Below, piece by piece: positions 19,021 to 62,742 of a DNA stretch of 64,000 nt. Position numbers and translations under genes: made by a program. The stretch covers positions 10,772,948 through 10,836,947 of the forward strand of contig NC_133948.1 of assembly GCF_031877795.1 (NCBI RefSeq). Direction: 5' to 3'. The number at the start of each line of letters is the position of its first letter. The stretch's first letter is position 1. The notes under the pieces were generated by a model. It did no database searches and was not told the origin of the DNA. It saw only the letters and a program-made list of their open reading frames with translations. This stretch comes from Strix aluco (Eukaryota > Chordata > Aves > Strigiformes > Strigidae).

Positions 19021-19081
19021 TTGGACCAGGCTGCTGCCGCAGGCTGCTCATCCCCTGGTCTTGGCAGTTCCAGGGGTGTTC
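19021..19081. repeat. Left arm of a 61-bp inverted repeat flanking C and J
   Basis: Matches the reverse complement of 22177-22237 at about 60 of 61 positions. The arms lie 3.1 kb apart and enclose the C and J segments. Confidence 0.85.
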
Positions 19082-19126
19082 ATCAGGGTCCCCAGGGGTG
19101 AGCAAGAGCGGCAGAGAGCACCAGCA

Positions 19127-19453: not shown

Positions 19454-19773
19454 TTAGAAGCATTCGGATTTGTTCAGGGTCTTCACCACATTGCTGGCCT
19501 CGTGCGTGACCTTGCAGGTGATGGTTTTGCACTTGTTCCACTCAGAGGCAGTCAGCGTCATGTAGCTGCTGGCCATGTACTTGTTGTTGGTTTGCCGCTG
19601 GGGCTGACTGGTCTCGACACCACTGTTGAGGGTGCAGCCTTCAGCTGACCAGTCCATCTTGGCGGCGCCGGGGTAGAAGTCTCCCGCCAGACACACCACA
19701 GTGGCTTTGCCCTGCGACATCTCCTCCTTGGACGGTGGGAAGAGGGTGACGGTGGGGGCGGCCTTGGGCTGAC
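19454..19773 (-). CDS. IGLC: Immunoglobulin lambda constant region exon
   Basis: Single C1-set immunoglobulin domain of the lambda light chain, joined by splicing to a rearranged V-J. The acceptor TGCAG precedes the exon, whose first two bases complete a glycine codon with the J exon (G-QPKAAPTVTLFPPS). Canonical landmarks are VVCLAGDFYPG (first domain Cys), MDW (core Trp), ITCKVTH (second domain Cys) and the terminal SECF, whose Cys bonds the heavy chain. About 106 residues, the normal length. Odd points: an extra Cys in SAEGCTL, another in EWNKCKT, and one Phe after the terminal Cys. It is the only C exon I find. Confidence 0.97.
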
Positions 19774-19929
19774 CTGCAATGGGGAGAGAGAGCAGCGTGG
19801 AGTCAGGGGGTGCCCTGTCACAGCCCCCTGCTTGCCTGCCCTGCCTGCCCTGCCTGCCCAGCTGGCACTGCCCAGAGACTTCCCACTTCCCCCACAGCTA
19901 AGAGTTTATCATTTATCACTCTAACGTTT

Positions 19930-20320
19930 TAGATTTGGAAAACATCTACATATATATCTTTAGTATATATATGTATATATAGACATATACGTGTATGTGT
20001 AATACATATACACATATATACACATCCCATATGTACTTGTATATGTTATATATACACTATAAGTATATATATGTGCATAGGCACATTATATATTATAGAT
20101 ATATATACAGCTGATATACATAATATATGTATATTATATGTCACATATATAAAATATCCAATATACTACACATCTATGTAGTATACATCACTATATACAT
20201 ATATGTGTAATTATATATCATTTATATAATATACATATTTATGTATTTATATATATGTCACATATATAAAATATATATGAGATATATAATATATATATGG
20301 CATATATATATAAAACAAAA
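19930..20320. repeat. AT-rich (TA)n-like low-complexity tract in the J-C intron
   Basis: Nearly 400 bp of ATATAT/CATATA units inside the 1.5-kb J-C intron. A possible matrix-attachment or unwinding element, but only the composition is seen. Confidence 0.85.
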
Positions 20321-21312: not shown

Positions 21313-21350
21313 CTAGGACGGTCAGGAGGGTCCCGGCCCCGAATACACCA
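21313..21350 (-). CDS. IGLJ: Immunoglobulin lambda joining segment (canonical J)
   Basis: Encodes GVFGAGTLLTVL with the FGXG motif and ends CTAG|GTGAGT, a phase-1 donor matching the C-lambda exon. Its RSS (21351-21378) abuts the 5' end. The distance to C is 1.54 kb, similar to the chicken arrangement. Confidence 0.96.
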
Positions 21351-21378
21351 CACAGTGATACAGGGCTGTGCAAAAACT
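21351..21378 (-). promoter_or_regulatory. 12-bp-spacer RSS of the canonical J
   Basis: In J orientation: nonamer AGTTTTTGC (21370-21378), 12-bp spacer (21358-21369), heptamer CACTGTG (21351-21357). The heptamer is consensus. It pairs with the 23-bp-spacer RSSs of the V genes, as the 12/23 rule requires. Confidence 0.95.
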
Positions 21379-21424
21379 TCCTGCTTCATGGTAGAAGCGC
21401 TCCGGGGCCCCATGGACGTAGAAG

Positions 21425-21640
21425 GATGAAGATGGTGAGATGGAGGTGTCCTGATGGACACAACAGGATGAAGGTGATGGGATGGAGGTGTCCTGATGGA
21501 CACAACAGGATGAAGGTGATGGGATGGAGGTGTCCTGATGGACACAACAGGATGAAGGTGATGGGATGGAGGTGTCCTGATGGACACAACAGGATGAAGG
21601 TGATGGGATGGAGGTGTCCCGATGGACACAGCAGGATGAA
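21425..21640. repeat. Minisatellite, 42-bp period, about five copies
   Basis: Near-identical 42-bp units beginning about 45 bp from the J nonamer. The period is a multiple of three, so it reads open in several frames. That is a repeat artefact, not a protein. Confidence 0.95.
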
Positions 21641-21988
21641 TGCATGGTGCTGGATGTGCCCCGGTGGATATGGCAGGGCCGGAGCAGCAGGACAGCTGTA
21701 TGGGGATGACTGTGTGTCCCTGCTGGAGGGGCCATGGCAAAATGGGTGGCCTTAGCCCTGCCATCTGTCATGGACTGCATTGGCCAGGCTCTCCAGAGCC
21801 GTGGCTGTGTCACTGGCTGCTCCAGAGATCCACTGCTACCCAGGACCGGGCGCCTTGTTCTTGTTACAAGCCCATGTCCCTGCCTGTCGTGTGAGGATGT
21901 TAATCCCAGGTGAGAAAGGGCTGGTGGAGGCTTTGGGTGCCCCTAAGGCATGACAGGCAGAACCTTGCTTCAACCTGCACTGCTGCCA

Positions 21989-22179
21989 TGAGGGGGTGCT
22001 GGTCCTGGGTGGGCACTGGGGAGGCCACGCATGATGGCTGTGTCCCAGCTGCCAGGGATGAGCCGAGGAAGCCATGCAGGGCAGTCTCCGTTGCTGCCAC
22101 GTCACTCCCCCAGACATGCCAGGAAGCAAACAACAAGGGAAAGGGTAGGATGCAGCATTGCAGCATAAACCATCCTGAA
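21989..22179. repeat. 191-bp direct duplicate, J-proximal copy
   Basis: Nearly identical and in the same orientation as 24590-24780. It lies about 0.6 kb upstream (V side) of the canonical J RSS. The partner copy lies about 0.9 kb upstream of the second J-like segment. Confidence 0.9.
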
Positions 22180-22237
22180 CACCCCTGTAACTGCCAAGAC
22201 CAGGGGATGAGCAGCCTGCGGCAGCAGCCTGGTCCAA
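22177..22237. repeat. Right arm of the 61-bp inverted repeat
   Basis: Reverse-complement partner of 19021-19081. It begins where the 191-bp duplicate ends. Confidence 0.85.
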
Positions 22238-22239
22238 AT

Positions 22240-23610
22240 GGGGACCACTGGCAATTGAACAGTATGTGTGTGGGTAAACCTCATGAATAAACCATCCATC
22301 CATCCTTCCCACTGCCCAGGAACACCAGCGCTGGCATAGGTGCTGTGGTTTCATAGGGGACCCCCACCTCCCCTTGCCTGTGCCACCCTGCAGCCTGACC
22401 CTGCTCTCTGAGGCAAAACCAGACCCTGGCACAGCTCGCAGCCCTACCTGGGCAGGATTTTCAGTGTCTGGCGGGTGGGCGAGCCTCCTTGCAGCAGCTG
22501 TGTTGGGGCGTCCTGTGCTGGGGCAGCATGTGGCAGGGAAGTGGCGTGGCCCCAGCTGCTGTCACACTGCTCCTGCCACTGTGCCGGAGCTCAGCCCTGC
22601 GCTCGGGGCTGGGTGTGGGGCACTGAGCCATCCCGCCAAGGGTAAAAAAGCATTTCCCTTTGTCACATCTGGCATCTCGGCACTGGCAAAAACACTAGTG
22701 TGGGGTTGGTTCCCGTGAGGGGGAGTGCAGAGCCCCGCTGAGCCAATACAGCCTGCCAGCCATGACGGAGGATCACGCCCTGGGATGCTTGCTGAAGGCG
22801 CCTATTGCTGCATCAGTGGGTGATGACCAATGGCTGAATTCACAGGGTGTTTTATTTCTGCCCTAACAGAGCTCAGTGCATGTCTCAGCACTTAATGCCC
22901 TGCCTGGGTCAGGGGACCCGGTCCGCAGGTGAAGGGGAGGTCTAGAGGCATCAGCCAGCACTGGGTGCTGCAGCAGAGAAGCCCTGGCCGGCTGCTTTCT
23001 CCAACTTAATTTAGCTCCCACCTTTGCTGCAGGAGATCAAGCCAGTGCCCACAAACTCAGCTACACTGCTTTTTGGAGGCTGAAGAGGTGGCCATCGTCC
23101 TGAATGCCTGAAGAGACAACCTTGTCCTGAGCCAGCAAGCCCAACTCCTCTTGCTCACACTTGAAGCCTTCCACTTCAACCCCCGATATATTTCCTCACC
23201 ATACCATAGAGCACAGCTGGGAGTGTCTCCTTAGGAGAAAGAGAAATGTTAAGAAATCTCTGTTTCATAAACTCCAATATAATCTGGCTGTCTGGCAAAT
23301 ATATAGATACACTTTTACCCAGTAACTCCTGCACTCAGACAAGATGAACGAAACTCAGGGGATCAGTAGAGGGTCTGCAGATTTGAAAGGACCAAAAACA
23401 TTTTGCAAGTAGCAAAGCCCATTATCCCATAAAACCTTGTTTCCTCCTGTCAAAGAAAGGCACATGAATGTGTTTCAGTGTGGTTAGGCAGACGGACACA
23501 CTACTATAACCAAATGGAGATGTTGAAGAAAGAAAAAAACCACCTCAAACCCCAGGAAGAGCCCATACAGGTCCCAGCACTGGACAGACCATGTGTGAAC
23601 ATCAGAGTGA
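22240..23610. other. Spacer between the two J segments
   Basis: I looked for a second C-lambda exon or its remains on the minus strand and found none. AATAAA appears at 22286 on the plus strand. No gene recognised. Confidence 0.45.
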
Positions 23611-23615
23611 CTTAC

Positions 23616-23654
23616 TGAGGATATTCAGCTGGGTCCCACTGCCAAAGAAATAAA
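23616..23654 (-). CDS. Second, J-like segment (orphan lambda J candidate)
   Basis: The minus strand reads YFFGSGTQLNIL, keeping the FGXG motif. It ends CTCA|GTAAGT, a strong donor in the same phase as the canonical J, so splicing to C-lambda would give Ser-Gln-Pro-Lys at the junction. Directly 5' is a 12-bp-spacer RSS-like block. At 39 nt it is one base longer than the canonical J (38 nt). It lies 2.3 kb upstream of the canonical J, between J and V1. It could be a working second J, a decayed J from a lost J-C unit, or a T-cell-receptor-like J by origin. Expression is unknown. Confidence 0.7.
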
Positions 23655-23682
23655 CGCAGTGACACATTGCTGTGCAGGACAC
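23655..23682 (-). promoter_or_regulatory. 12-bp-spacer RSS-like sequence of the J-like segment
   Basis: Heptamer CACTGCG (23655-23661, one change from CACTGTG), a 12-bp spacer (23662-23673) starting ACAGC as in the canonical J, and a weak nonamer GTGTCCTGC (23674-23682). Geometry is exact. The nonamer has lost most of its T run, so efficiency is probably low. Confidence 0.6.
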
Positions 23683-24589: not shown

Positions 24590-24780
24590 TGAGGGGGTGC
24601 TGGTCCTGGGTGGGCACTGGGGAGGCCACGCATGATGGCTGTGTCCCAGATACCAGGGATGAGCCGAGGAAGCCATGCAGGGCAGTCTCCGTTGCTGCCA
24701 CGTCACTCCCCCAGACATGCCAGGAAGCAAACAACAAGGGAAAGGGTAGGATGCAGCATTGCAGCATAAACCATCCTGAA
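24590..24780. repeat. 191-bp direct duplicate, V-proximal copy
   Basis: Partner of 21989-22179. The pair brackets the J-like segment, which suggests that a J-containing unit was duplicated. Confidence 0.9.
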
Positions 24781-25166: not shown

Positions 25167-25658
25167 GGTTTTTCTATCACTTCCCCATTGCTCTGTGTCA
25201 ATGTGTCAGCACTGCTGCTGCTGTCGTAGCTACCACAGTAATAGACAGCCTCGTCCTCGGCTTGGACCCCAGTGATGGTTAACGTGGCTGTGGAGCCAGA
25301 CTTGGATCCGGAGAATCGCGAAGGGATGCCCGAGGGTCTCTTGTCGTTGTAGTAGATCACAGTGACAGGGGCACTGCCAGGGACCTTCTGCTGGTACCAG
25401 CCATAGCTGTAGCTACTCCCAGAGCAGGTGATCTGGACAGTTTGTCCCGGGTTCGCTGACACCGAGGGTGGCTGAGTCAGCGCTGCCTGGACCAGGGAAC
25501 CTGGAGAGGGAGAGGAGAGAGGGGAGAAGATGGGGGTCAGCCAGTGCCCCAGGAGCATGGCCCCCCACAGGCAGGGGGATGAGCCCCTGTGCAGAGAGTC
25601 TGGCCAGGTCACCTGAGACATGGGCGAGCACCACGAGGAGGAGAGGGGCCCAGGCCAT
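25167..25658 (-). CDS. V1: intact V-lambda gene, J-proximal, with leader and RSS
   Basis: The leader exon (25613-25658) gives [16 protein letters not shown], a hydrophobic signal peptide, with donor CAG|GTGACC. The V exon (25206-25500) follows acceptor CCAG. Framework landmarks are present: [22 protein letters not shown] (Cys23), GWYQQK (Trp41) and DEAVYYC (Cys104). CDR2 is YYNDKRPS and CDR3 starts [10 protein letters not shown]. The RSS has heptamer CACATTG (25199-25205), a 23-bp spacer and nonamer AGAAAAACC (25167-25175). Promoter octamer and TATA are upstream. This is the best positional equivalent of the single functional chicken V. Confidence 0.93.
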
Positions 25659-25731
25659 GGCGCGATTCCACCAGCTCCGTGTCCCCACGCCGATGGGGCT
25701 GTGCTGTGGACCCTGACTCCCTTTTAAGTGC

Positions 25732-25764
25732 CCACCCACCTGGGCACGGCCCCTCCATGCAAAT
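25732..25764 (-). promoter_or_regulatory. V1 promoter: octamer plus TATA-like box
   Basis: ATTTGCAT (25757-25764) in coding orientation, then TTAAAA (25732-25737), about 75 bp before the leader ATG. Octamers of this kind drive B-cell V promoters. Confidence 0.85.
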
Positions 25765-27381
25765 CTGACCCCACGGTCACAGCCGGATCCTGCCTGCGTC
25801 TCTCTCCACACCTCCCTCCCCGCTCCACGCCCAGCCCCACCACCCCAGATCAGCGGGGCTTGTCCCCGGGCACAGAGCGGAGACACGTCCCAGTTCAGAG
25901 CCCAAAACCCGCCAGCATGGACTCCCCCCCACTAGCCTGAGCCTGGGGCTGCAGGGCCAAAGGGCACGGGAGAGCCAGGATGCTGGGGGCGAGGGTGGCA
26001 AGCGGCACCCAGAGCTCCAACATCCCCGTCATGGGTTGTGGGGAGCAGATGAGCTGGTGCTTGTGCCGGGGATGGAAGGACAAGCCCTTGTCCAGGCTAT
26101 TGCCACTGGGGTGGATTCTTGGGTTCCAGCTGGGCCCAGCTAGCAACAGCAGTGGTGAAAGGGATGGGAAGAGGCAGGAGTAAAGCCCCGTTTCCATCCC
26201 TCCGGGGTCCCCAGCTGAACATTATCTGCAACCAGTGAGCACACAGGATCTTAACCTGGAGTGCTTGAGGGGAGCAGGGCTGAGAGCCGGGCTCATTAGA
26301 GAGCAGAGTAGCCTTCTCCCCTGAGGACCGCAGGGTGCTTGGTGCAGCCCTGCCTGTGCCCACCTGGCCCCAACCCATGGCACGTGGCCCCCCACTCCAT
26401 ACCACAGTCCCGGGCACAGAGCTGGGGGACAAGATCACCTGGGACCCAGCTGCCCACATGGCAGCTCCCAGCACCACAAGTGCAGCTCCCATGGGCCCAG
26501 CAGCCCTGCCCAAAGCCTGGCCCTATCACAGCCTCAAACCCAGACCTTGTCCCCTGCCCCTCACACTCATGGGGTCACAGGAAATGTCACTGCTGAAAAC
26601 AAGCAGCACCCCATGACACAGGAGAGCCGGTGTCTTTGTCCCCAGCAGTAGCCACAGTCCCAGGGCCCTGCATCAGGATGGGGACAGGCTCAGGGTGCCG
26701 GGCAGCCCCTTGCTGTCTAGGGGTTGTAGTGGGAGATTGCCCAGTGCCAGGGGCTTCCCCGGGGGCCAGAGGTGCTGGGGGGGTCCTGTGCAGGCTGAGC
26801 ATGACCCAATGGTCCAGCACTGGGCAAACACAGCCAATGTTGAAGTAGCCCATGAGCTCCTCTTGTGACATGGCAGATCCTCTTCCGGCCACTCCTACTC
26901 TGCCCCAGGAGCATCACACATGGCCCTGGAGATGTTGCTCCTTTGGGAAATGTCCCTTCCCACGGTTCGAATGTAGAGCTTTGGCCCAGCTGCGCAGCCC
27001 ATGGCATGTTCCCACCTCCTGGTGCTGGGGTCACATTTTCAGCAGGGCTGAACCCCGCAGGGGTGATGCTCTGGGGGCTCCTGGAACAGTTGGTTTTGGA
27101 GGAGAGAAGGGAGGCACCTGAAAGTCTCTGGGTACCAGCTGGGGAGAGTGAGGGATCTTGGACCCACAGAGTGGGGCAAGGAGAAGACTGGTGGGGGTCT
27201 TCCCCTCCCAAAAAGGCGGGAGACAGGCATACACCTGGGTTACCTATGGGATGGCCAGGCCAGGACACGAGACACAGCCACCTGCACCACAGGGCAGCAA
27301 GGGCGGCGCCATTGCAGGCACCCGTGCCACCATCAAATGGGGACAGCAGAGACTCCTAACTGGTCCCTGCAATGGGAGCAG

Positions 27382-27873
27382 GATTTTTGTATCACTCCCC
27401 CTTTGTTCCGTGTCACCGTGGCAGCATTGCTGCTGCTGTCCCAGCTACCACAGTAATAGACAGCCTCGTCCTCGGCTTGGACCCCAGTGATGGTTAACGT
27501 GGCTGTGGAGCCAGACTTGGATCCGGAGAATCGTGAAGGTATGCCTGAGGGTCTCTTGTCATTCCAGTAGATCACAGTGACAGGAGCACTGCCAGGGACC
27601 TTCTGCTGGTACCAGCCATAGCTGTAGCTACTCCCAGAGCAGGTGATCTGGACGGTTTGTCCCAGGTTTGCTGACACCGAGGGCGGCTGAGTCAGCGCTG
27701 CCTGGACCAGGGAACCTGGAGAGGGAGAGGAGAGAGGGGGGAAGACAGGGGTCAGCCAGTGCCCCAGGAGCACGGTCTTCCACAGGCAGGGGAATGAGCC
27801 CCTGTGCAGAGAGTCTGGCCAGGTCACCTGAGACATGGGCGAGCACCACGAGGAGGAGAGGGGCCCAGGCCAT
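27382..27873 (-). CDS. V2: intact V-lambda gene with leader and RSS
   Basis: Leader 27828-27873 (same peptide as V1) and V exon 27421-27715, open throughout. Both domain cysteines and the core Trp are present. CDR1 is like V1 (SSYSYGW), CDR2 is YWNDKRPS and CDR3 starts [14 protein letters not shown]: heptamer CACGGTG (27414-27420), 23-bp spacer, nonamer ACAAAAATC (27382-27390). Flanks match V1 over the whole unit. Confidence 0.92.
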
Positions 27874-27936
27874 GGCGCGATTCCACCAGCTCCGTGTCCC
27901 CACGCCGATGGGGCTGTGCTGTGGACCCTGACTCCC

Positions 27937-27979
27937 TTTTAAGTGCCCACCCACCCAGGCACGGCCCCTCCATGCAAAT
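27937..27979 (-). promoter_or_regulatory. V2 promoter: octamer plus TATA-like box
   Basis: ATTTGCAT at 27972-27979 and TTAAAA at 27937-27942, same spacing as V1. Confidence 0.85.
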
Positions 27980-29596
27980 CTGACCCCACGGTCACAGCCG
28001 GATCCTGCCTGCGTCTCTCTCTCCACACCTCCCTCCCCGCTCCACGCCCAGCCCCACCACCCCAGATCAGCGGGGCTTGTCCCCGGGCACAGAGCGGAGA
28101 CACGTCCCAGTTCAGAGCCCAAAACCCGCCAGCATGGACTCCCCCCGAATAGCCTGAGCCTGGGGCTGCAGGGCCAAAGGGCACGGGAGAGCCAGGATGC
28201 TGGGGGCGAGGGTGGCAAGTGGCACCCAGAGCTCCAACATCCCCGTCACGGGTTGTGGGGAGCAGATGAGCTGGTGCTTGTGCCGGGGATGGAAGGACAA
28301 GCCCTTGTCCAGGCTATTGCCACTGGGGTGGATTCTTGGGTTCCAGCTGGACCCAGCTAGCAACAGCAGTGGTGAAAGGGATGGGAAGAGGCAGGAGTAA
28401 AGCCCGTTTCCATCCCCCCGGGGTCCTCAGCTGAACATTATCTGCAACCAGTGAGCACACAGGATCTTAACCTGGAGTGCTTGAGGGGAGCAGGGCTGAG
28501 AGCCGGGCTCATTGGGGAGCAGAGTAGCCTTCTCCCCTGAGGACCGCAGGGTGCTTGGTGCAGCCCTGCCTGTGCCCACCTGGCCCCAACCCATGGCACG
28601 TGGCCCCCCACTCCACACCACAGTCCCGGGCACAGAGCTGGGGGACAAGATCACCTGGGACCCAGCTGCCCACATGGCAGCTCCCAGCACCACAAGTGCA
28701 GCTCCCATGGGCCCAGCAGCCCTGCCCAAAGCCTGGCCCTATCACAGCCTCAAACCCAGACCTTGTCCTCTGCCCCTCACACTCATGGGGTCACAGGAAA
28801 TGTCACTGCTGAAAACAAGCAGCACCCCATGACACAGGAGAGCCAGTGTCTTTGTCCCCAGTGGTAGCCGCAGTCCCAGGGCCCTGCATCAGGATGGGGA
28901 CAGGCTCAGGGTGCCGGGCAGCCCCTTGCTGTCTTGGGGCTGTAGTGGGAGATTGCCCAGTGCCAGGGGCTTCCCCGGGGGCCAGAGGTGCTGGGGGGCT
29001 CCTAGGCAGGCTGAGCATGAGCCCAACGGGCCAGCACTGGGCAGTCAGAGCCAACGCTGAAGTAGCCCATGAGCTCCTCTTGTGACATGACAGATCCTCT
29101 TCCGACCACTCCTACTCTGCCGCAGCAGCCTCACGCATGGCCCTGGAGATGTTGCACCCACGGGAAATTTCCCTTCCAGGGATTGAATGCAAAGCTTTGA
29201 CCGAGCTGCACAGCCCATAACATGTTCCCACCACTTGGTGCTAGGGACACATTTTCAGCAGGGATAAACCCCGCAGGGGTGATGCTCTGGGGGCTCCTGG
29301 CACAGCTGGGCTGGGGGGAGGGCAGGGAGGCACCTGAAGGTCACTTGGTACCAGCTGGAGAGCGCAGCAGACCTCGGACCCACAGAGTGGGGCAAGGAAA
29401 AGACTGGTGGGGGTCTTCCGCTCCACAAATGGCATGGGACAGGCACAGACCTGGGTTATCTATGGGATGGCCAGGCCAGGACACAAGACACAGCTACCTG
29501 CAGCACAGGGCAGCAAGGGCAGCACCATTGCAAGCACCTGTGCCACCATCACACAGGGACAGCAGAGACTCCTAACTGGTCCCTGCAATGGCGGGA

Positions 29597-30073
29597 GGAT
29601 TTTGTATCACTTCCCCATTGCTCCGTATCAACGTGTCAGCACTGCTACCACAGTAATAGACAGCCTCGTCCTCGGCTTGGACCCCAGTGATGGTTAACGT
29701 GGCTGTGGAGCCAGACTTGGATCCGGAGAATCGCGAAGGGATGCCCGAGGGTCTCTTGTCGTTATCATAGATCACAGTGACAGGGGCACTGCCAGGGACC
29801 TTCTGCTGGAACCAGCCATAGTAGCTGCTACTACCGGAGCAGGTGATCTGGACGGTTTGTCCCGGGTTCGCTGACACCGAGGGCGGCTGAGTCAGCGCTG
29901 CCTGGACCAGGGAACCTGGAGAGGGAGAGGAGAAAGTGGAGATGATGGGGGTCAGCCAGTGCCCCAGGAGCATGGCCCTCTGCAGGCACGAGGAGGGGCC
30001 CCTGTGCAGAGAGTCTGGCCAGGTCACCTGAGACATGGGCGAGCACCACGAGGAGGAGAGGGGCCCAGGCCAT
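29597..30073 (-). CDS. V3: intact V-lambda gene with short CDR3 end
   Basis: Leader 30028-30073 and V exon 29636-29915, open, with [11 protein letters not shown] and CDR2 YDNDKRPS. The germline CDR3 part is only CGSSA, some five codons shorter than in V1. RSS: CACGTTG (29629-29635), 23-bp spacer, nonamer ACAAAATCC (29597-29605). All parts for rearrangement are present. The short CDR3 end looks like a small deletion in a serine-rich repeat. Confidence 0.9.
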
Positions 30074-30136
30074 GGCGCGATTCCACCAGCTCCGTGTCCC
30101 CACGCCGATGGGGCTGTGCTGTGGACCCTGACTCCC

Positions 30137-30179
30137 TTTTAAGCGCCCACCCACCCGGGCACGGCCCCTCCATGCAAAT
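30137..30179 (-). promoter_or_regulatory. V3 promoter: octamer plus TATA-like box
   Basis: ATTTGCAT at 30172-30179 and TTAAAA at 30137-30142. Confidence 0.85.
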
Positions 30180-31799
30180 CTGACCCCACGCTCACAGCCA
30201 GATCCTGCCTGCGTCTCTCTCTCCACACCTCCCTCCCCGCTCCACGCCCAGCCCCACCACCCCAGATCAGCGGGGCTTGTCCCCGGGCACAGAGCGGAGA
30301 CACGTCCCAGTTCAGAGCCCAAAACCCGCCAGCATGGACTCCCCCCCACCAGCCTGAGCCCAGGGGCTGCAGGGCCAAAGGGCACGGGAGAGCCAGGATG
30401 CTGGGGGCGAGGGTGGCAAGCGGCACCCAGAGCTCCAACATCCCCGTCACGGGTTGTGGGGAGCAGATGAGCTGGTGCTTGTGCCGGGGATGGAAGGACA
30501 AGCCCTTGTCCAGGCTATTGCCACTGGGGTGGATTCTTGGGTTCCAGCTGGACCCAGCTAGCAACAGCAGTGGTGAAAGGGATGGGAAGAGGCAGGAGTA
30601 AAGCCCCGTTTCCGTCCCTCCGGGGTCCTCAGCTGAACATTATCTGCAACCAGTGAGCACACAGGATCTTAACCTGGAGTGCTTGAGGGGAGCAGGGCTG
30701 AGAGCCGGGCTCATTAGAGAGCAGAGTAGCCTTCTCCCCTGAGGACCGCAGGGTGCTTGGTGCAGCCCTGCCTGTGCCCACCTGGCCCCAACCCATGGCA
30801 CGTGGCCCCCCACTCCATATCACAGTCCCGGGCACAGAGCTGGGGGACAAGATCACCTGGGACCCAGCTGTCCACATGGCAGCTCCCAGCACCACAAGTG
30901 CAGCTCCCATGGGCCCAGCAGCCCTGCCCAAAGCCTGGCCCTATCACAGCCTCAAACCCAGACCTTGTCCTCTGCCCCTCACACTCATGGGGTCACAGGA
31001 AATGTCACTGCTGAAAACAAGCAGCACCCCATGACACAGGAGAGCCAGTGTCTTTGTCCCCAGTGGTAGCCGCAGTCCCAGGGCCCTGCATCAGGATGGG
31101 GACAGGCTCAGGGTGCCGGGCAGCCCCTTGCTGTCTAGGGGTTGTAGTGGGAGATTGCCCAGTGCCAGGGGCTTCCCTGTGGGCCAGAGGTGCTGGGGGG
31201 CTCCTGGGCAGGCTAAGCATGAGCCCAACAGGCCAGCGCTGGTCAGTCAGAGCCAATGTTGAATTAGTCCATGAGCTCCTCTTGTGCATGACAGATCCTC
31301 TTCCGACCACTCCTACTCTGCCCCAGGAGTCCAATGCATGGCCCTGGAGATGTTGCGCCCACGGGAAATTTCCCTTCTCAGGGTTTGAAGGCAAAGCTTT
31401 GGCCCAGCTGTGCAGCCCATGGCATTTTCCTGCCATCTGGTACTGGGGCCACATTTTCAACAGGGATAAACCCCGCAGGGGTGATGCTCTGGGGGCTCCT
31501 GGCACAACTGGGCTGTCAGGAGGGCAGGGAGGCACCTGAAGGTCTCTGGGTACCAGCTGGAGAGTGCAGCAGATGTCAGACCCACAGAGTGCAGCAAGGA
31601 GAAGACTGGTCGGGGTCTTCTCCTCCACAAAGGGCAGGGGACAGGCATACACCTGGGTTATCTATGGGATGGCCAGGCCAAGGACACGAGACACAGCCAC
31701 CTGCAGCACAGGGCAGCAAGGGCAGCGCCATTGCAAGCACCCGTGCCACCATCAAATGGGGACAGCAGAGACTCCTAACTGGTCCCTGCAATGGCGGGA

Positions 31800-32291
31800 G
31801 GTTTTTGTATCACTTCCCCATTGCTCTGTGTCAACGTGGCAGCATTGCTGCTGCTGTCGTAGCTACCACAGTAATAGACAGCCTCGTCCTCAGCTTGGAC
31901 CTCAGTGATGGTTAAGGTGGCTGTGGAGCCAGACTTGGATCCGGAGAATCGCGAAGGGATGCCCGAGGGTCTCCTGTCACTAGCATAGATCACAGTGACA
32001 GGGCCACTGCCAGGGACCTTCTGCTGGAACCAACCATAGTTGTAGCTACTCCCAGAGCAGGTGATCTGGACGGTTTGTCCCGGGTTCGCTGACACCGAGG
32101 GCGGCTGAGTCAGCGCTGCCTGGACCAGGGAACCTGGAGAGGGAGAGGAGAGAGGGGAGAAGATGGGGGTCAGCCAGTGCCCCAGGAGCATGGCCCCCCA
32201 CAGGCAGGGGGATGAGCCCCTGTGCAGAGAGTCTGGCCAGGTCACCTGAGACATGGGCGAGCACCACGAGGAGGAGAGGGGCCCAGGCCAT
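31800..32291 (-). CDS. V4: intact V-lambda gene with consensus nonamer
   Basis: Leader 32246-32291 and V exon 31839-32133, open. CDR1 is SSYNYGW, CDR2 is YASDRRPS and CDR3 starts [14 protein letters not shown]: heptamer CACGTTG (31832-31838), 23-bp spacer, perfect nonamer ACAAAAACC (31800-31808). The change TEVQAEDEA (usually TGVQAEDEA) in framework 3 is harmless. Confidence 0.92.
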
Positions 32292-34014: not shown

Positions 34015-34509
34015 GCCTTTTGTACCACTTCCCCTTTGCTCTCTGTCACCATGGCACCAGTATAGCTGTCCTCGTAGCCACCACAGTAATAGACATCCCC
34101 ATCCTCAGCTTGGACCCCAGTGATGGTTAACGTGGCTGTATAACCAGACAAAGATCCAGAGAATCGTGAAGGGATGTCTGAGGGTCTCCTGTCATTCCAG
34201 TAGATCACCGTGAGAGGGGCACTGCCAGGGACCTTCTGCTGGTACCAGCCATAGTAGCCGCTGCTACCCCCGGAGCAGGTGATCTGGACGGTTTGTCCCG
34301 GGTTCGCTGACACCGAGGGCGGCTGAGTCAGCGCTGCCTGGACCAGGGAACCTGGAGAGGGAGAGGAGAGATGGGAGAAGACAGGGGTCAGCCAGTGCCC
34401 CAGGAGCATGGCCCCCCACAGGCAGGGGGATGAGCCCCTGTGCAGAGAATCTGGCCAGGTCACCTGAGACATGGGCGAGCACCACGAGGAGGAGAGGGGC
34501 CCAGGCCAT
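34015..34509 (-). CDS. V5: open V-lambda gene with weak RSS
   Basis: Leader 34464-34509 and V exon 34054-34351, open. It has [17 protein letters not shown]2 YWNDRRPSD, framework 3 [11 protein letters not shown] and AEDGDVYYC (Gly for the usual Glu), and CDR3 [11 protein letters not shown]. The RSS heptamer is CATGGTG (34047-34053), which breaks the critical CAC, and the nonamer is ACAAAAGGC. It could be transcribed but probably joins poorly. It ends the homogeneous tandem array. Confidence 0.85.
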
Positions 34510-62118: not shown

Positions 62119-62742
62119 CTAAAACCAGTTGAAGGCATGTGACAGGGAGCAGTAATAGTTGCCATTGTCTTCATGGCAAGCGGATGCAATGATGAGGATG
62201 CAGGCATTGCTGGTGAGGTCTTTGGTAGCAGAGAAGCGGTCGGGAGTCTTGGCAGGCTTGTGCTTGTCTCGCTCAGAGTTGTAATAGAGCAGATACGTCA
62301 GGGAGTGCCCCGGGCGCTGCTGGTACCAGGAGATGCCAAACTCGCTGATATTGTACTGGGGGCTCAGGGTGCAGGACAACCGAGCGGTCTGCCCGGGCAG
62401 CACCAACACAGCGGATGGCTGGGTCAGCACGGGCTGAGCCCTGCAAGCTGCACACACCAAGGATGCAGTCACTGATGGGCTGAGCCATGTCCCTCATCTC
62501 CCCCAGCCCTAAAATGACCCTCTGCTCCCTTGAGGCAACCCCATTACCCAACCTCCACCCTGTTCATCACACCACACAGCCCTGGAGCAAAATGCCCTAT
62601 GGAGACTAACATCCCCCTTGTGCAGCCCAGTCCCGCCCGTCACCCCACAGTGTCCCCCCCAGACAGCAGCTAGCTCAGCCACACCACCCTTACCTGTCCC
62701 CGCCGTTCCCACCAGGAGCAGGACCATGAAGCCCAGGGCCAT
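62119..62742 (-). CDS. VPREB3: Pre-B lymphocyte protein 3 (VpreB3), two exons
   Basis: A V-type immunoglobulin domain protein of B-lineage cells that associates with mu heavy chain or light chain during assembly. Exon 1 (62694-62742) encodes signal peptide MALGFMVLLLVGTAGT with donor CAG|GTAAGG. Exon 2 (62119-62447) uses acceptor GTGCAG; the next AG, seven bases on, would meet a stop at once. Domain landmarks are AQPVLTQPSAVLVLPGQTA, LSCTLSP, ISWYQQRPG, LLYYNSE, PDRFSATKD and NGNYYCS. No RSS or J follows, as expected for a non-rearranging gene. At 125 residues it matches the human size (123). It lies beside IGL, as in other vertebrates. Confidence 0.94.

Follow-up and report, generated by a model that had tools for sequence, protein, structure and literature searches.

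In the available text of the avian reports, the immunoglobulin lambda locus (IGL) of birds consists of a single J-lambda-C-lambda block (PMC3308330, PMC3315531, PMC13060830), and light-chain diversity is described in the same literature as being gained by gene conversion. The IGJL count is one in chicken and one in zebra finch (PMC3315531), and the mallard is credited with one IGLJ and 11 functional IGLV (PMC13060830). Crocodilians differ in unit number: the accessible portion of the Alligator sinensis report gives six C and seven J, one J without a C being found behind it, and its authors take this C-less J to indicate that more C genes exist (PMC4762898). The premise of the first-pass annotation of the present locus, that one J is known, agrees with the bird literature on chicken, zebra finch and mallard. 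Our search of the literature, which mostly excluded subscription papers, found no mention of a second avian J-lambda in titles or abstract openings.

Here we examined 64,000 nucleotides of Strix aluco DNA (the window), whose minus strand carries an avian immunoglobulin lambda locus. A second J segment, J2, lies on the same strand in the V-J interval, between V1 and the canonical J1-C.

Anatomy of the owl lambda locus

The features on which the analysis is based are collected in Table 1. The array of V copies continues to about 57.4 kb of the window. In V1 to V4 at least, a tandem group at 25208-32291, an identical leader accompanies an open V exon and a 23-RSS of the CAC type, and a fifth V gene (34065-34509) has the leader, but its heptamer is CATGGTG. 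The owl C-lambda equals Strix uralensis model P0039 over all 106 residues. Three other features were recorded: a tandem array of 42-bp repeats immediately 5' of the J1 RSS (21370-21705), an AT-rich repeat tract in the J1-C intron (19940-20315), and an Ig V-like exon at 62149-62436 with 36% identity to V1 and without a good RSS (QPVLTQPSAVLVLPGQTARLSCTLSPQ...). The last may resemble VPREB3.

The first-pass annotation had reported a J-like segment with FGXG, an RSS at 12 bp and a splice donor in the phase of J1, and J2 has the position and the motifs it described. The J2 coding end is open, carries FGxG and retains the FGxGT, L and L of J1. Both J segments leave their exon in the same phase, which is that of C-lambda (J1 ...CTA G|GTGAGT; J2 ...CTC A|GTAAGT), and the codon formed at the junction with C-lambda is Ser for J2 (A|GT) and Gly for J1 (G|GT). 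A 201-bp sequence around J2 has itself as its sole match in the 1.41-Gb owl genome.

Table 1. Positions of the J, C and V features in the window.
Feature	Position	Strand	Remark
J2 coding segment, (TT)YFFGSGTQLNIL plus one base	23616..23654	minus	39 nt from heptamer to donor
J2 splice donor GTAAGT; phase 1, shared with J1	23610..23615	minus	starts at 23615
J2 heptamer CACTGCG; CGCAGTG read from coding end (consensus CACAGTG)	23655..23661	minus	
J2 12-bp spacer	23662..23673	minus	9/12 identical to J1 spacer
J2 degenerate nonamer GCAGGACAC, 4/9; GTGTCCTGC in the CACTGCG reading	23674..23682	minus	
J1, canonical J-lambda GVFGAGTLLTVL	21313..21350	minus	
J1 12-RSS: CACAGTG / 12 bp / GCAAAAACT	21351..21378	minus	heptamer 7/7, nonamer 7/9
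Sole C-lambda exon found in window	19457..19774	minus	own C vs whole window; 19.0-25.2 kb searches
V1 exon, open	25208..25498	minus	leader 25611-25658, 23-RSS 25167-25205
V2: leader, open V exon, 23-RSS (CACGGTG / ACAAAAATC)	27423..27873	minus	

Homology of J2 to J1 and J2-type segments in other birds

J2 agrees with J1 in the spacer (9/12), in the RSS as a whole (19/28) and in the coding region (19/31 bases), and it retains FGxGTxLxxL and the donor; an ungapped comparison of the two revealed no clear likeness beyond the RSS, the coding end and the donor. The RSS match is not unique, as four places in the window, J1 included, reach at least 19/28, and a spacer match of at least 9/12 occurs at three of the 141 CACTGNG sites of the window (J1, J2 and one other). 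A composite motif, written after J1 and J2 had been seen and consisting of CACTGNG, 5-12 bp, FGxGT and a donor at +16, has two occurrences in the window, namely J1 and J2; it was found in 0/400 dinucleotide shuffles of the window and was likewise absent from 178,955 bases of genuine control sequence, drawn from 18 further stretches of this contig. A chance resemblance could draw on the consensus count, by which the J2 RSS scores 10/16 and is no better than background, eight sites in the 3.8-kb V1-J1 interval (J2 included) reaching 10/16 against the 12-RSS consensus. The shuffles, the control bases and the occurrence of the same segment in light-chain models of other birds, which by itself already refutes chance, led us to reject this reading, to which we attach practically no weight. 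J2 is a true J-lambda segment and a homologue of J1.

How much of its J character was kept by constraint can be gauged from simulated neutral change. When J1 was let drift neutrally until it differed as much as J2 does (13/37 bases), all the marks counted (FGxGTxLxxL, open frame and GTRAG) survived in a fraction of 4.75e-5 of 400,000 runs, a figure that overstates the case, J1 being assumed ancestral and J2 having been noticed for its retained J marks. Because the neutral walk so rarely retains these marks, most of the J1-J2 divergence probably arose while J2 was a working J, and J2 is probably old and was once used. The walk bears on constraint during most of this divergence and not on present function. 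Neutral copies of the present J2 keep its marks in 14% (strict) to 34% (loose) of cases at 0.12 substitutions/site, an approximate value for the owl branch based on an assumed rate, and in 2% to 13% at 0.24 substitutions/site. With 14-34% of neutral copies keeping the frame at 0.12, we rejected the retained frame as proof of J2 function in the owl. The intact frame and donor are nevertheless features that a long-dead segment need not show, and we counted them against a relict reading.

Protein models indicate that J2 is not private to this owl. Our survey of J types comprised 157 proteins of bird, reptile and mammal origin. It covers a small part, as a contributing search listed the best 120 of its 2072 matches and the database is clustered at 90% identity. 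FGxGT is present in 109/157, preceded in 105 by V, I, A, T or S, as in J1, and YFFGSGTQ is found in 3/109, namely P0071 of Buteo buteo and P0114 and P0157 of Strix occidentalis caurina. The J-C junction residue is Gly in 102, Asp in two and Ser in three of the 107 readable rows (Columba rows ending TIS-N are not readable by the junction pattern), and all three with Ser are of the J2 type, as the J2 donor phase (A|GT) predicts. Both Strix occidentalis models translate straight across the RSS into J2 (AMCHCVYFFGSGTQLNILS in P0157, MCHCVYFF... in P0114) and therefore show germline J2, not a joint; their amino acids are compatible with a heptamer CACTGCG or CACTGTG alike. Buteo P0071 (V...YYCGSDDSSNN-V-YFFGSGTQGTVL-S-QPK) looks like a V-J2 joint, but the entry comes from a protein database and was probably modelled automatically. 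A region search for J2-bearing proteins returned only three candidates and missed Buteo P0071, and its yield is no evidence of rarity. Among viral_contigs, a J2 24-mer had 0 matches, and P0039 gave 15 pattern matches and no relative.

The J2 recombination signal

The heptamer of J2 matches the consensus at 6/7 positions, versus 7/7 in J1, and its mismatch falls inside the essential CAC triplet, so that the coding-side edge of the 12-RSS reads CGCAGTG. At 12 bp, no A-rich nonamer is recognisable: GCAGGACAC scores 4/9, versus 7/9 for GCAAAAACT of J1. The first-pass annotation was right that a heptamer CACTGCG and a nonamer-like block are present at this spacing, but it overlooked the break in CAC that shows when the heptamer is read from the coding side, and both elements are degraded as signals. 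CAC is needed for RAG cleavage according to the available text of PMC9723617, and that of PMC7337519 describes heptamer positions 1-3 as perfectly conserved and changes at position 3 as almost completely suppressing cutting; the position changed in J2 is 2, and these suppression data concern position 3. Because the CAC triplet is broken and the nonamer is 4/9, J2 is probably unable to rearrange in this owl, and loss of CAC would be expected to abolish its use in vivo. The ideas that J2 could join V genes in this bird or act as a decoy for recombination are weak for this reason. Splicing past J1 to C-lambda, also proposed, is permitted by the phase and drawn in the Strix occidentalis gene models, but a V must join J2 first.

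A cryptic heptamer, CACATTG (23663-23669), lies 8 bp beyond the J2 heptamer and is identical to that of V1. It keeps CAC, has a nonamer of only 4/9 and is one of the eight sites at 10/16. A cut at this site would yield an in-frame J with HCV ahead of YFF (HCV-YFF); its use is possible by CAC and unlikely by nonamer.

J2 might still be rearranged at a low level in the owl, through CGCAGTG or CACATTG, and spliced past J1 to C-lambda, giving FGSGTQLNIL-S chains. Such use would be in keeping with the open frame and the consensus donor in the right phase, with the Buteo model in which a V is joined to a J2-type J, and with the in-frame J that V1's heptamer would provide 8 bp out. We consider it quite improbable, given the requirement of RAG cutting for CAC (PMC9723617, in the text available), the 4/9 nonamer at both candidate sites and the use of J1 in Strix uralensis P0039, although the latter is one sequence of a 9-sequence cluster.

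An apparent second C-lambda in relatives and the proposed orphan J of the owl

The distribution of J types leads to the question of which constant region they accompany. In Buteo, the J2-type J of P0071 is joined to a C domain distinct from that of P0064, which has a J1-type J; in these protein models (not DNA), the two C domains agree at 93/107 positions and differ at 14/107, junction residue included, and the two are listed on contigs of equal size (44,556,007). A tree of 64 C-lambda rows places the P0071 C (C2) with Fulmarus, Mycteria and lgn P0033 at 98/90. A cleaned tree of 48 rows recovered the same four together with an Accipiter nisus fragment, both hawks together, at 94/90, which is under the star threshold. 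This cleaned tree dropped 18/64 rows (Strix P0157, Lepidothrix, Columba, Heliangelus, Colius, Cuculus, two Falco, two Pezoporus, one Amazona, Chroicocephalus, Cyrtonyx and lgn P0007, P0008, P0015, P0017 and P0020), shortened P0033 to 83 residues, and took in Gopherus as well as the Accipiter nisus fragment. The C2-group sequences share the ending HETGT-x-x-KVL, the Fulmarus row stopping after HETGT. Plain identity is higher between Buteo C2 and Buteo C1 (87%) than between Buteo C2 and Mycteria C2 (78%), so that C1 and C2 may have exchanged sequence by gene conversion, or a lineage-specific duplication may have taken place. Buteo P0071 is the only C2-type protein with a visible J. Compared with the Strix uralensis C, that of Strix occidentalis P0114 is the same at 96/107 positions and different at 11/107, and is either C1 or another C.

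No second C was found in the owl between 19.0 and 25.2 kb, where tblastn with seven C-lambda queries, C2 included, and a profile of 22 C domains recovered C1. The remaining tblastn matches in this interval had E of at least 0.95, except J1 and J2 themselves, both matched by the alligator query, which carries its own J. A search of the whole window with the owl's own C gave nothing but C1 with E below 0.4. A C2 remnant between J2 and J1 was rejected on these grounds and, as these searches found no C2 in the window, we call J2 an orphan and not part of a unit.

The interval between J1 and V1 also contains a composite patch (21989-22237), made of 191 bp 99% identical to 24590-24780 and, directly after it, a 62-bp inverted copy (98%) of 19021-19082; a 4-bp overlap joins the two parts, and the patch looks like a recent templated insertion. 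The 191-bp repeat, whose copies (21989-22179, 24590-24780) flank J2, was rejected as the source of J2 because J2 sits between the copies and inside neither. The patch is near the site expected for a C2 exon, 1.5 kb behind J2, and one may speculate that it marks the loss of C2.

We think it likely that J2 is the orphan of a second J2-C2 unit whose C2 was lost in this owl, in line with the suggestion in the first-pass annotation of a relict J from a duplicated J-C unit, which gains support from the J2-type J of Buteo on a distinct C-lambda, from the grouping of that C with Accipiter nisus, Fulmarus and Mycteria, and from the absence of a C2 remnant at 19.0-25.2 kb. A unifying model would have the J2-C2 unit predate the split of owls and hawks (Strigiformes, Accipitriformes) and, as it appears, survive in other birds. 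The Strix lineage to which this owl belongs would have lost C2, and the J2 signal would have lost the CAC of its heptamer and a recognisable nonamer. RAG would then no longer cut at J2, V genes would join J1 only, and J2 would persist between the V genes and J1 as an inert remnant in the germline, its coding frame and donor still undecayed. The model takes the Buteo J2-C2 pair to be orthologous and functional, and we infer the order J2-C2-J1-C1. Any use of J2 in a bird would be putative.

Duplication of J1 alone, without a C, could also have given rise to J2, the Buteo J2-C2 pairing then being secondary or a gene-model artefact. The lack of a second C in the owl locus (19.0-25.2 kb) and the restriction of the J1-J2 likeness to RSS, coding end and donor are what such an event would leave. 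The C2-type constant sequences in four named genera, and the J2 type and Ser junction of the sole C2-type protein with a visible J, argue against it, and we regard it as unlikely. The orphan reading, in which C2 was lost, is the one we carry forward.

A second J, and apparently a second J-C unit in some birds, alters the inferred history of the avian locus and conflicts with the one-J-C-block view in the published accounts available. More tentatively, and with rather less than even confidence, we suggest that many Neoaves have two working units, J2-C2 upstream of J1-C1, that V-J2 joining followed by V-J1 re-joining could edit light chains, and that the upstream unit collapsed to an orphan J in Strix. 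Where several V genes and two working J-C units exist, J1 and the V genes upstream would remain after V-J2 joining and could serve a second rearrangement. Such editing would not be available to a bird that has a single V and a single J. With a second J, and in some birds apparently a second J-C unit, the capacity of some birds for light-chain re-rearrangement becomes testable.

Mammalian loci contain non-functional J segments in which the J coding end is kept and the RSS is defective. The owl J2, a clear case of a damaged J signal with frame and donor still intact, is like these, and in the avian literature accessible to us such segments are undescribed. The locus as a whole resembles the one-J, one-C avian IGL in its V array with many further copies, in a J with a good RSS adjoining one C and in its single orientation, and is unlike it in having a second J between V1 and J1. 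Its at least four V genes with leader, open frame and CAC-type 23-RSS recall ducks and not chicken, the mallard having 11 functional IGLV in the available text of PMC13060830. The Buteo model pair would fit two of the tandem J-lambda-C-lambda units known from crocodilians and mammals. Unlike the C-less J of the alligator, as described in the accessible part of PMC4762898, the lone J of the owl stands upstream of the working J-C and its RSS is broken.
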